DNA of 64,000 nucleotides from contig JACPQY010000048.1 in the NCBI GenBank assembly GCA_016190245.1, positions 32,969-96,968 on the forward strand, read 5' to 3'. The stretch's first letter is position 1, and each line of letters starts with the position of its first letter. Both the position numbers and the translations under genes were made by a program. The DNA comes from Nitrospirota bacterium. GTDB taxonomy: Bacteria > JACPQY01. Shown piece by piece: positions 30,719 through 33,160 of the stretch. A model generated the notes under the pieces. That model did not search any database. It was not told where the DNA came from and was given only the letters and a program-made list of their open reading frames with translations.

Positions 30719-31717
30719 CTACCAGCGCAAGAGCGCGGCCCCCCACGTGTAGCCCGCGCCGAACGCAGCCAGACAGACGAGGTCGCCCTGCTTGAGCCGG
30801 CCGGCCCGCACGCATTCATCGAGGGCAAGAGGGATCGAGGCAGCCGTCGTGTTCCCGTATCGTTGAATGTTGTTGTACACCTTGTCTGGAGGCAACCCGA
30901 GGCGCTGAGCCACGCCATCGCAGATGCGAAGGTTGGCCTGATGGGCGATGAAGAGCGAGAGATCCTCCACCTTCTGCCCGGCGCGCGCGAGGACCTCCTG
31001 GACGGCCTCCGGCATCTTCTGGATGGCGTTCACGAAGACCTTGCGGCCTTCCATTCTCGGGAAGTGCCGGCCCTCTTCGACGTGCTGCAGATTGACCCTT
31101 GGCTTGCCGAAGCACCCTGGGGCCTCGAGCCAGAGGTCACGGGCGGAGCGTCCGTCCGAGTGAATCACAGAAGCGAGGACTCCGCGGGAGTCGTCCTCCA
31201 CGGGACTGAGGAGAACGGCAGCGGCGCCATCACCGAAGAGCACGGCCACATCGCGGCCCCGATCGGAGAAATCCAACCCGTGCGAGTGGACCTCGGCGCC
31301 GACGAGCAGGACGTTCTTGTAGAGCCCTTGCCGGATAAGGGCGTCCCCGACATGAAGGCCGTAGATGAAACCGGAGCACTGGTTCCGCACGTCCAGGGCG
31401 GGCGTACCGGGCGTGATGCCCAGCTTTGGCTGGATGAAGCAGCCGCTGCCAGGGAACTCGTGGTCGGGAGAGAGCGTGGCGTAGATGATGAGATCCACGT
31501 CCGCGGGCGTCCGCCCGGCCATCTGGAGCGCGCGTTCGCAGGCCACCTTGGCGAGGTCCGTTCCGCACTCCGTCCCGTCCGTGAAGTGGCGCTCCTTGAT
31601 CCCCGTTCTCTGTGTGATCCACTCGTCCGACGTCGTCATCAACTTCGAGAGATCGTTGTTGGTGACCACGCGCTCGGGCACATGGTGGCCCGTGCCCACT
31701 ATGATCGTCCGCAGCAT
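30719..31717 (-). CDS. fabH: Beta-ketoacyl-ACP synthase III
   Basis: A 332-residue KAS III that condenses acetyl-CoA or another acyl-CoA with malonyl-ACP to start fatty acid synthesis. The catalytic triad is visible: Cys in VRNQCSGFIYGL, His in FIAHQANLRICD and Asn in RYGNTTAASIPLAL. The N-terminus TIIVGTGHHVPERVVTNNDL and the region DEWITQRTGIKERH are typical. No other fab genes are nearby, so it may prime a special fatty acid or be a relocated housekeeping copy. It is transcribed away from tRNA-Leu. Confidence 0.94.
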   Translation of the reverse strand: MLRTIIVGTGHHVPERVVTNNDLSKLMTTSDEWITQRTGIKERHFTDGTECGTDLAKVACERALQMAGRTPADVDLIIYATLSPDHEFPGSGCFIQPKLGITPGTPALDVRNQCSGFIYGLHVGDALIRQGLYKNVLLVGAEVHSHGLDFSDRGRDVAVLFGDGAAAVLLSPVEDDSRGVLASVIHSDGRSARDLWLEAPGCFGKPRVNLQHVEEGRHFPRMEGRKVFVNAIQKMPEAVQEVLARAGQKVEDLSLFIAHQANLRICDGVAQRLGLPPDKVYNNIQRYGNTTAASIPLALDECVRAGRLKQGDLVCLAAFGAGYTWGAALLRW

Positions 31718-31783
31718 AGACCAAGCTCATAGTCCACCGGATGCTCGTTGTCAAAGAGCGGAGAGGCTTTTGCCTGTGCGGCC

Positions 31784-31812
31784 TTGAAAACAGGTACCTG
31801 ATAGGGTTATCT
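31784..31812 (+). promoter_or_regulatory. Promoter of tRNA-Leu
   Basis: TTGAAA (31784-31789) and TTATCT (31807-31812) are separated by 17 bases. Transcription would start near 31819, four bases before the tRNA 5' end. The match and position fit a housekeeping sigma factor promoter for a stable RNA. Confidence 0.6.
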
Positions 31813-31822
31813 TTCCCACGTT

Positions 31823-31909
31823 GCCGCGGTGGTGGAATTGGCAGACACACCATCTTGAGGGGGTGGCACCCGCAAGGGTGTGCGAGTTCAAATCTCGCCC
31901 GCGGCACCA
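31823..31909 (+). tRNA. tRNA-Leu (GAG)
   Basis: An 87-nt class II tRNA. Acceptor GCCGCGG (31823-31829) pairs with CCGCGGC before discriminator A. The D-arm is GTGGAATTGGCAGACAC. The anticodon stem CCATC/GGTGG holds loop TTGAGGG with anticodon GAG. A long variable arm (CACCCGCAAGGGTG) and the T-arm GCGAGTTCAAATCTCGC follow. The CCA end is encoded (31907-31909). It reads CUC/CUU leucine codons. It is intact and has its own promoter. A GIY-YIG gene starts 10 bases downstream, and a disrupted copy of this tRNA lies at 32160-32298. Confidence 0.96.
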
Positions 31910-31918
31910 CCGGGTGCT

Positions 31919-32182
31919 ATGGGCCAGTGGAGTGTGTACCTGATTCGAAGCGTGGCGACCGGCCGGGTGTACGTGGGTGCCAGCGGGGATGTGCCGCGGC
32001 GGATTCGCGAGCACAACGCAGGGAAGGTTCCCAGCACCCGCAGGGACCGCCCTTGGACCTTGCTTGAGGTGGAGCCTCATGCGGACAAGTACACGGCCCT
32101 GAGGCGAGAGAAGTACCTGAAGAGCGGGGCCGGGCGGGCGGAGATCCGCCACCGATTCGGGTGGAATTGGCAGAGCCCGTAG
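31919..32182 (+). CDS. GIY-YIG nuclease, short stand-alone type
   Basis: An 87-residue protein that is nearly all GIY-YIG nuclease domain: WSVYLIRSVATGRVYVGAS holds the two-part motif (VYLI, then YVG), and RRIREHNAGK has the usual Arg and His-Asn. EVEPHADKYTALRREKYLKS is the metal-binding helix with Glu. It starts at ATG 31919, 10 bases after tRNA-Leu. Its last codons (encoding WNWQSP and TAG) are made from a duplicated D-arm segment of the tRNA, so the coding region overlaps the tRNA-Leu copy. Family members of this size are often described as UvrC-like or YhbQ-like, with few known functions. The tRNA flanks suggest a tRNA-linked mobile or homing-like gene. Confidence 0.85.
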   Translation: MGQWSVYLIRSVATGRVYVGASGDVPRRIREHNAGKVPSTRRDRPWTLLEVEPHADKYTALRREKYLKSGAGRAEIRHRFGWNWQSP

Positions 32183-32298
32183 AACGGGCCGCGGCACACC
32201 ATCTTGCTGCGCCACGTTTCACGTGGAGGGGGTGGCACCCGCAAGGGTGTGCCACGTGACGACGTGGCGCGGCGAGTTCAAATCTCGCCCGCGGCACC
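32160..32298 (+). pseudogene. tRNA-Leu copy interrupted by three mini-hairpins
   Basis: Four blocks match the intact tRNA-Leu base for base: GGTGGAATTGGCAGA (32160-32174), CACACCATCTTG (32195-32206), a 25-nt block (32227-32251) and a 26-nt block (32273-32298). Between them are inserts of 20, 20 and 21 nt (32175-32194, 32207-32226, 32252-32272). Each insert is a 6-bp stem with a 3-4 nt loop (for example CCACGT-TTC-ACGTGG) plus a CGCGG-like tail; the middle one is inverted. They fall in the D-loop, between anticodon positions 34 and 35, and between variable arm and T-stem. The 5' acceptor strand is not in its normal place. As it stands it cannot be a normal tRNA. Confidence 0.85.
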
Positions 32299-32353
32299 GC
32301 TTCTGCGGCCCGTGGTGTTGCCGCGCGTGTGGCCTGCGGCTAGGATACGCGCC

Positions 32354-33160
32354 ATGGCGAGCCTGGCCGACGTTCTCGCGCACACCCGTCAGGGTGTAGA
32401 GCAGCGTAAGCGGGCAAGGCCTTCCGAGGTCGTGCTGGAGGGGCCGGCGCAGGATCATGAAAAGATCTCGTTCGTGGATGTCGCGCGGCCGCGTGGCGAC
32501 GCGGCGGGGAGCACGCGCGACCGCAACGTCGTCATCGCGGAGTTCAAGCGGGCGTCGCTGACGCGCACCTTCGTGCAACCCGACGAAGACCCGGCGCCCT
32601 ATTTCGAGGCCTATCGGGAGGGAGGGGCCGCGGCGATTTCGGTCCTGACTGAGCCGGAGTTCTTCCACGGCGACCCGGCGGACATCGAAACGGCCAAGCG
32701 AACCGTGGACGTTCCCGTGCTCATGAAGGATTTTGTCATCGACGAGTACCAGATCTACGAGGGTCTGGCGGCGGGAGCCGATTTCGTCCTGCTCATCGTC
32801 CGGATCCTCACCGATGAGCAGATCGACAGGATGCTGCATGTCGTGCGGCGTCACGGGATCGAGGCGCTTGTGGAGGTATGCTCGGAAGAGGATCTTCGGC
32901 GCGCTCTCCGGTTCGAGGTGGACCTCCTCGGCGTGAACAGTCGTGACTTGGACACCCTCCGCGTGGACACAACCGTCTTCGAGACGCTGGCGGACCGGCT
33001 GCCGGCGAAAGCCGTGAGGGTGGCGGAGAGCGGAATAAAATCCCGGGAGCAGATCGCCCGGCTACGCGGGCTCGGCTACGATGCCTTCCTCGTGGGCGAG
33101 GCGCTGATGTCTCACCCGCAGCCCTCCGAGGCGCTGCGGGAGTTGGTCGAGATTGCGTAG
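32354..33160 (+). CDS. trpC: Indole-3-glycerol-phosphate synthase
   Basis: A 268-residue TIM barrel for the fourth step of tryptophan synthesis. Family blocks include VVIAEFKRASLTRTF (catalytic Lys and the ring-binding region), AAAISVLTEPEFFHG, VPVLMKDFVIDEYQIYE with the catalytic Lys, LVEVCSEEDLRRAL, LLGVNSRDLDTL and VRVAESGIKSREQIARL. The start is ATG 32354, downstream of the tRNA-Leu copy. It opens a trpC-trpF-trpB-trpA operon. The N-terminal part contains HTRQGVEQRKRARPS, so the usual 'I-x-x-x-K-x-x-E' helix is present but diverged. Confidence 0.95.
   Translation: MASLADVLAHTRQGVEQRKRARPSEVVLEGPAQDHEKISFVDVARPRGDAAGSTRDRNVVIAEFKRASLTRTFVQPDEDPAPYFEAYREGGAAAISVLTEPEFFHGDPADIETAKRTVDVPVLMKDFVIDEYQIYEGLAAGADFVLLIVRILTDEQIDRMLHVVRRHGIEALVEVCSEEDLRRALRFEVDLLGVNSRDLDTLRVDTTVFETLADRLPAKAVRVAESGIKSREQIARLRGLGYDAFLVGEALMSHPQPSEALRELVEIA

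Follow-up and report, generated by a model that had tools for sequence, protein, structure and literature searches.

Elements that use a tyrosine integrase to enter tRNA genes leave a partial duplication of the tRNA flanking the insert, keep one tRNA intact and have their breakpoints in loops; such tRNA-directed integration is known to produce 3' partial tRNA copies. Among GIY-YIG proteins, Slx1 is a structure-specific nuclease for branched DNA. Prokaryotic Slx1/UPF0213 proteins are strongly conserved and mostly of vertical descent according to the available part of the study that describes them (PMC1564403). Phage T6 SegB is a GIY-YIG enzyme that cuts inside tRNA genes at the motif RAWTSGAAC, which is the reverse complement of the T-loop sequence GTTCSAWTY, and in the accessible portion of that account it drives tandem amplification of a tRNA together with the nuclease gene (PMC13096335). 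Two further systems involve short palindromes. REPs have a GT(A/G)G head, and the RAYTs are tyrosine (HUH) transposases (PMC2817692, PMC3116915). The palindromes of Volvox organelles often have TAAA or TTTA loops, as described in the accessible sections of that article (PMC2670323). We analyzed a stretch of 64,000 nucleotides from a Nitrospirota bacterium, hereafter the window, in which a tRNA-Leu gene, a small GIY-YIG gene and a hairpin-interrupted partial copy of the tRNA adjoin one another, and compared this locus with related loci in other genomes.

A split tRNA-Leu(GAG) copy beside a GIY-YIG gene

The intact tRNA-Leu(GAG), called by both ARAGORN and Rfam and kept as the functional copy, lies at 31823..31909 on the forward strand. 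It is followed on the same strand by a compact ORF (31919..32182) predicted to encode an 87-aa Slx1/UPF0213-like GIY-YIG nuclease (PF01541, E 6.9e-15), and then by a split copy of the tRNA that spans 32160-32298. This copy comprises four forward-strand blocks, each an exact match to the intact gene: nt 9-23, the 5' side and loop of the D-arm (32160..32174); nt 24-35 (32195..32206); nt 36-60, the 3' side of the anticodon and the variable arm (32227..32251); and nt 61-86, the T-arm and 3' acceptor strand (32273..32298). The downstream neighbor, also on the forward strand, is trpC, encoding indole-3-glycerol phosphate synthase (32354..33160; PF00218, E 1.3e-68). The GIY-YIG gene is the sole ORF between tRNA-Leu(GAG) and trpC, in a unit of about 0.4 kb. 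The collinear chain of four blocks scores 75, whereas the best of 2000 dinucleotide shuffles reached 22, and the likelihood that it arose by chance is negligible.

Three inserts of 20, 20 and 21 nt separate the blocks, each consisting of a 6-bp stem, a loop of 3-4 nt and a CGC(G/A)G tail. Insert 1, GCCCGTAGAACGGGC followed by CGCGG, is on the forward strand at the boundary of D-loop and D-stem (32175..32194). Insert 2 lies inverted inside the anticodon (32207..32226) and reads CCACGTGAAACGTGG followed by CGCAG on the reverse strand. Insert 3, CCACGTGACGACGTGG followed by CGCGG, is again on the forward strand (32252..32272) at the junction of variable arm and T-stem, its exact position being uncertain by about 2 nt. 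Inserts 2 and 3 are related in inverted orientation, their alignment score being reached by 0 of 2000 shuffles (P about 0.0005), and pairing between them is possible along about 20 bp around the variable arm. Insert 1 is less closely related (P 0.004-0.007). An Rfam match of the copy to mir-4876 (23 bits against a cut-off of 100) overlies this inverted pair and was taken as chance. The gene runs into the copy: its last seven codons (GWNWQSP) are mostly D-arm sequence and its stop codon comes from insert 1. A preliminary description of this DNA had reported the tRNA, the gene, the four-block copy and the three hairpins with the middle one inverted, all of which hold to the base, and had correctly noted that the 3' end of the gene is built from the duplicated D-arm.

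The copy lacks tRNA nt 1-8 and is therefore unable to close an acceptor stem. Its best predicted fold is not a tRNA, and neither ARAGORN nor Rfam called it as one. A group I intron in tRNA-Leu was rejected, as positions 31700-32500 matched no intron at E<=1. The core of the inserts has no further copy elsewhere in the window genome (G000), and we rejected the idea that these hairpins are a genome-wide repeat.

In the nearest relative, which belongs to the same family (G016, locus L097), trpC is preceded by a single tRNA-Leu(GAG) with nothing between them. An unoccupied allele of the window site thus exists. The tRNA-Leu of this relative differs from that of the window only in the variable arm, and the split copy bears the variable arm of the window genome's own tRNA-Leu(GAG), from which we conclude that the copy was made locally and not imported with the gene. 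Comparison with the empty site shows that the unit was inserted at tRNA-Leu(GAG) in the window lineage.

The window protein is a member of the established GIY-YIG/Slx1 family. Residues Y7, Y18/G20, R28 and E64 are invariant across 23 relatives, and the residues, the PF01541 match and an AF2 model (pLDDT 92) agree in placing the Y, Y-x-G, Arg and Glu catalytic residues of the superfamily on a GIY-YIG fold. The best solved match to the model is Slx1, with Slx1 and 1zg2 the best Foldseek matches, and profile comparison gave E values of 1e-14 to 1zg2 (UPF0213) and 4e-6 to Slx1. The protein consists of a single compact domain that stands alone and most resembles UPF0213 and Slx1, as in the prokaryotic Slx1/UPF0213 (URI) group. 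Among relatives, the dN/dS estimates for two pairs (0.29 and 0.20) and the invariant catalytic residues show a nuclease maintained by constraint. We rejected a homing endonuclease of the SegB/I-TevI type, as the 87 aa amount to the catalytic domain only and include no DNA-binding region; a PHROG homing endonuclease matched at only E 0.0036 and an NCBIfam intron endonuclease was far under its cut-off. A viral origin was also rejected, since only 4 related loci were present among 2.9 million viral contigs.

Related units beside tRNA genes and between inverted repeats

We surveyed 113 related GIY-YIG loci from Bacteroidota, Patescibacteria, Omnitrophota, Ignavibacteria and other groups. In these loci, which are homologous and not independent, a tRNA lies within 60 nt of the gene in 65 cases and within 700 nt in 81. 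A collinear partial copy of that tRNA (score >=16) is present at 64 of the 81, and 3 of the 28 other tRNAs of the window genome, used as a control, reach this score. The tRNA-GIY-YIG-tRNA layout for which the preliminary description had proposed a search in relatives is therefore widespread; at most loci the opposing case, the same gene with no tRNA and with random inserts, was not encountered. Partial copies are usually on the far side of the gene and are often interrupted by hairpins. The window genome contains five GIY-YIG genes of the family, three of which directly follow an intact tRNA (Leu, Pro or Arg) and have a partial, hairpin-bearing copy beyond them.

The layout also occurs in named isolates such as Winogradskyella aurantia and Christiangramia bathymodioli. 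This bears on the possibility of an assembly artefact: the window genome is a draft of 86 contigs, 84.8% complete, but the arrangement is repeated in many independent assemblies, named isolates among them, and we consider an artefact extremely improbable.

The part of the tRNA that is copied depends on the side on which the intact gene lies. Where the intact tRNA is downstream, the copy is a 5' part (39/47 begin at nt 1-2); where it is upstream, the copy is a 3' part (9/11 stop no more than 3 nt from the tRNA end). Read from these alignments, the rule matches the outcome expected of an arrangement tRNA(1..q)-gene-tRNA(p..end), such as a long staggered break would produce. The gene-side ends of the copies have no clear preference for loops (14/46 distinct ends are in stems), loci vary greatly in which part of the tRNA they keep (nt 1-22 alone, or nt 31-85), and some loci have a 3' remnant past the intact tRNA. 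Two partial copies in the window genome are without a nearby nuclease gene, one with a D-loop hairpin upstream of tRNA-Lys (L180) and one downstream of tRNA-Cys (L198).

Tandem arrays of 2-4 units are found at L260, L261, L262 and L263. In the L260 array an unrelated hairpin takes the place of the whole anticodon arm in the tRNA copy, and in the L262 array that of the whole T-arm. Such arrays, along with the precedent of T6 SegB in the available text of that report (PMC13096335), are what would be expected if nuclease breaks and direct tRNA repeats led to reversible tandem amplification of a tRNA locus. Most loci are single units, however, the protein is unlike SegB outside the catalytic fold, and the copies are partial and hairpin-bearing, so that mainly the nuclease gene is multiplied. 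We regard amplification of this kind as a very unlikely explanation.

A second setting was found among relatives that have no tRNA. Inverted repeats of at least 12 nt bound 20 of 41 tRNA-free loci, compared with 0.5% at shifted positions and 1/89 at tRNA-linked loci. The window unit has no terminal inverted repeats and was rejected as a MITE or other inverted-repeat element. The bounded units are mostly 276-304 bp (~290 bp; full range ~276-423 bp), and their terminal repeats are perfect, 12-20 nt long and often start with (A)CCCCG. Two are in the window genome (L003:1478-1777 and L004:1476-1779; C37, C33), and others are at L030, L051, L059, L069, L075, L076, L077, L084, L130, L131, L144 and L154. 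From its structure, the inverted-repeat unit is possibly a very small autonomous transposable element. Elements of ~108-112 bp with the same inverted repeats, CCCGCACCTATCC, were seen at L162, L166 and L170 (G016) and at L173 (window genome); they are too short for the nuclease gene and look like non-autonomous versions.

The 299-bp unit at L144 (~1460-1759) lies in a 23S rRNA gene, in a predicted terminal hairpin loop. The units at L030, L051, L076 and L084 share a single conserved insertion site in a gene; its flank, HPHVHCIVPGGG, resembles an IS91-type transposase when translated by eye. At L052:2867-3133, a group I intron lies directly 3' of a GIY-YIG gene of the family. Both settings, tRNA genes and inverted-repeat units, are hairpin-forming DNA.

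Hairpin modules in tRNA copies

We identified 42 distinct clean insertions in tRNA copies. The D-loop contains 20 of them, and the folds of 32 surpass those of 95% of shuffles. Seven lie strictly inside stems, compared with 13.6+-2.9 under the null (P 0.015). The tendency to occupy single-stranded positions of the tRNA, first noted for the window inserts, is accordingly shared by many loci. L085 has three extra hairpins relative to its ortholog L032, all clean insertions: one at the variable-arm/T-stem junction, which is the site of insert 3 in the window, one in the T-loop and one in the loop of another hairpin. Neither loss nor duplication of the target was visible at these insertions when compared with L032. 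The hairpins are thus separately inserted modules. Nesting is also seen at L027, where a 27-nt palindrome lies within a D-loop palindrome that L028 has in plain form. At tRNA-Leu(CAA) loci, hairpins in both orientations carry a TAAA tail and have the same architecture as the CGC(G/A)G hairpins of the window. That the hairpins are separate modules, that the window unit is one of a large set and that it has relatives in tRNA-free inverted-repeat elements are all additions to the preliminary description.

Two genomes contain many copies of the palindrome CCTGCCTRCCGGCAGGCAGG. Several other genomes have few copies, mostly or all at GIY-YIG units, which argues that the hairpins are not simply dispersed repeats that landed there by chance. 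In G010, the Dokdonia genome of L045, the palindrome ACGCTTTCGCGAAAGCGT occurs at 520 places, and its reversed control at 0. Outside tRNAs, a general bias of palindromes towards hairpin loops was unsupported in G012 (P 0.85) and weak in G010 (P 0.01).

These distributions bear on a reading in which the partial tRNA is a decaying scar of a tandem duplication or old integration, where unrelated palindromes landed because the sequence was dispensable. Such a scar is consistent with the 3' partial copies that tRNA-directed integration yields, with palindromes of the same type being dispersed in G010 and G012 and with the nuclease-free, hairpin-bearing partial copy before tRNA-Lys in the window genome. 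It accords poorly with the lack of other genomic copies of the window hairpins, with genomes in which most or all of the few palindromes are at such units, with the nuclease being the only gene of the unit in many phyla and with retention of a hairpin in relatives. We consider decay unlikely.

Retention is clearest at a tRNA-Met locus of Flavobacteriaceae, where the copy contains a 30-nt D-loop palindrome that is identical in four genomes and single-copy in every genome bearing it. In the same four genomes, pS of the GIY-YIG gene is 0.58-0.80, near saturation and similar to that of the neighboring gene. Conversion by the intact tRNA cannot preserve this hairpin because the intact tRNA has none. 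Identity at such divergence therefore shows that the hairpin-tagged copy is maintained under selection in that branch. This constraint result refers to Flavobacteriaceae, as no orthologous unit of the window locus was found. At L032 and L085, the copy blocks and a 22-nt non-tRNA insert are unchanged while dS of the gene is 0.44.

The same observations raise the possibility that the partial tRNA with its hairpins serves the nuclease mRNA as a structured leader or 3' UTR, is co-processed with the tRNA and either regulates the nuclease or provides its RNA substrate, with mobility secondary. The hairpin identity across genera, the unchanged L032/L085 sequences and the L260 and L262 copies, in which the remaining fold is kept after arms were swapped for other hairpins, all fit an RNA function. 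Such a role is harder to reconcile with a window copy that lacks the 5' acceptor strand and does not fold best as a tRNA, with the great variation in the part of the tRNA retained or with the extra hairpins tolerated in orthologs. On balance, we find this reading rather unlikely. The idea of a hairpin-tagged tRNA-like RNA, also raised in the preliminary description, gains support from the conserved hairpin of Flavobacteriaceae.

A candidate mobile unit and its relation to known systems

The explanation we favor, with a probability of roughly 0.55, is that the window contains a small mobile unit whose sole gene encodes an Slx1-type nuclease and which inserts into or next to genes that form hairpins, copies part of a tRNA and retains hairpins as a cis-element. 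Entry into the tRNA-Leu(GAG) locus would have given tRNA(1..end)-gene-tRNA(9..end), a product like a target duplication with one tRNA left whole. The nuclease would cut hairpin-forming DNA or RNA, such as tRNA genes and palindromes, and repair of the break would copy the unit and duplicate part of the target. The spare copy would acquire short hairpins where the tRNA fold leaves bases unpaired and, in this family of units, would persist as a cis-acting element instead of decaying. The hairpins may alter or mark the nuclease site, or alternatively may control a nuclease mRNA co-transcribed with the tRNA. We infer the cleavage, the repair route, the hairpin role and the nuclease-driven mobility. 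The homing-like, tRNA-linked unit of the preliminary description stands as regards linkage to tRNA, which recurs across phyla and has an empty site in a relative; any homing is hypothetical. The companion proposal that hairpins mark or immunize the target needs modification: simple masking would be insufficient, as the intact tRNA-Leu(GAG) in the unit has no hairpin. It is unprotected, and self-cutting must therefore be averted in some other way.

More tentatively, and with somewhat less than even confidence, there may be a cross-phylum class of minimal mobile elements in hairpin-forming DNA that have compact Slx1-type GIY-YIG proteins as their enzymes and take the form of split tRNAs or ~290-bp inverted-repeat units. 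They may also spread short hairpins into loops of structured RNA genes, as a nuclease-palindrome partnership independent of RAYT/REP. If so, the common and unexplained small GIY-YIG genes would be engines of very small mobile elements. This would point to a source for many bacterial palindromes where RAYTs are absent, account for the hairpin-studded partial tRNAs adjoining tRNA genes and offer a ready natural substrate set with which to identify the targets of this nuclease branch. Related units are present in cultured hosts.

Compared with tyrosine-integrase elements in tRNA genes, the window unit is only ~0.4 kb, has hairpins in the copy and contains a GIY-YIG gene as its one ORF; lacking an integrase between the tRNA and trpC, it was rejected as such an element. 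A closer likeness, the nearest together with REP/RAYT, is to SegB of phages T4 and T6, a free-standing homing endonuclease, in that a GIY-YIG nuclease adjoins tRNA genes of many isotypes (PMC13096335, available portion). SegB is a phage homing enzyme, whereas the window family has a compact cellular domain of the Slx1/UPF0213 type and is accompanied by partial, hairpin-interrupted tRNA copies, of which the accessible part of the same report gives no account for SegB (PMC13096335). SegB is similar in habit and not in family, and the window family is not SegB-like outside the catalytic fold. Cutting of tRNA by the window family is nonetheless plausible because SegB, a distant GIY-YIG protein, cuts tRNA genes and amplifies in tandem.

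As with REP/RAYT systems and REPINs, short GC-rich hairpins with a fixed short tail occur in both orientations and are linked to one nuclease gene, possibly between inverted copies (PMC2817692, PMC3116915). Here, by contrast, a GIY-YIG enzyme accompanies hairpins that carry CGC(G/A)G or TAAA tails and lie in a split tRNA. We rejected REP/RAYT on the enzyme, the only family-matching ORF of the unit being GIY-YIG, and on the hairpins, which have a CGC(G/A)G tail and an insert core confined in G000 to the window locus. The nested palindromic repeats of Volvox organelles are likewise mobile short hairpins inserted into one another; they are organellar, and the available part of that article mentions neither a GIY-YIG partner nor a tRNA copy (PMC2670323). 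The double-hairpin elements of Allomyces mtDNA, organellar as well, also resemble the hairpins here in mobility and mutual insertion. Prokaryotic Slx1/UPF0213 proteins (PMC1564403; PDB 1zg2, 1ywl) share the compact GIY-YIG fold and the sequence family, and the tRNA-linked and inverted-repeat-bounded settings are features of the window family not met in the accessible part of that study (PMC1564403). In the literature covered, which excluded preprints and held few subscription papers, we found no description of a layout of tRNA, GIY-YIG gene and hairpin-bearing copy. Each described mobile system seriously considered differs from it in a defining feature.
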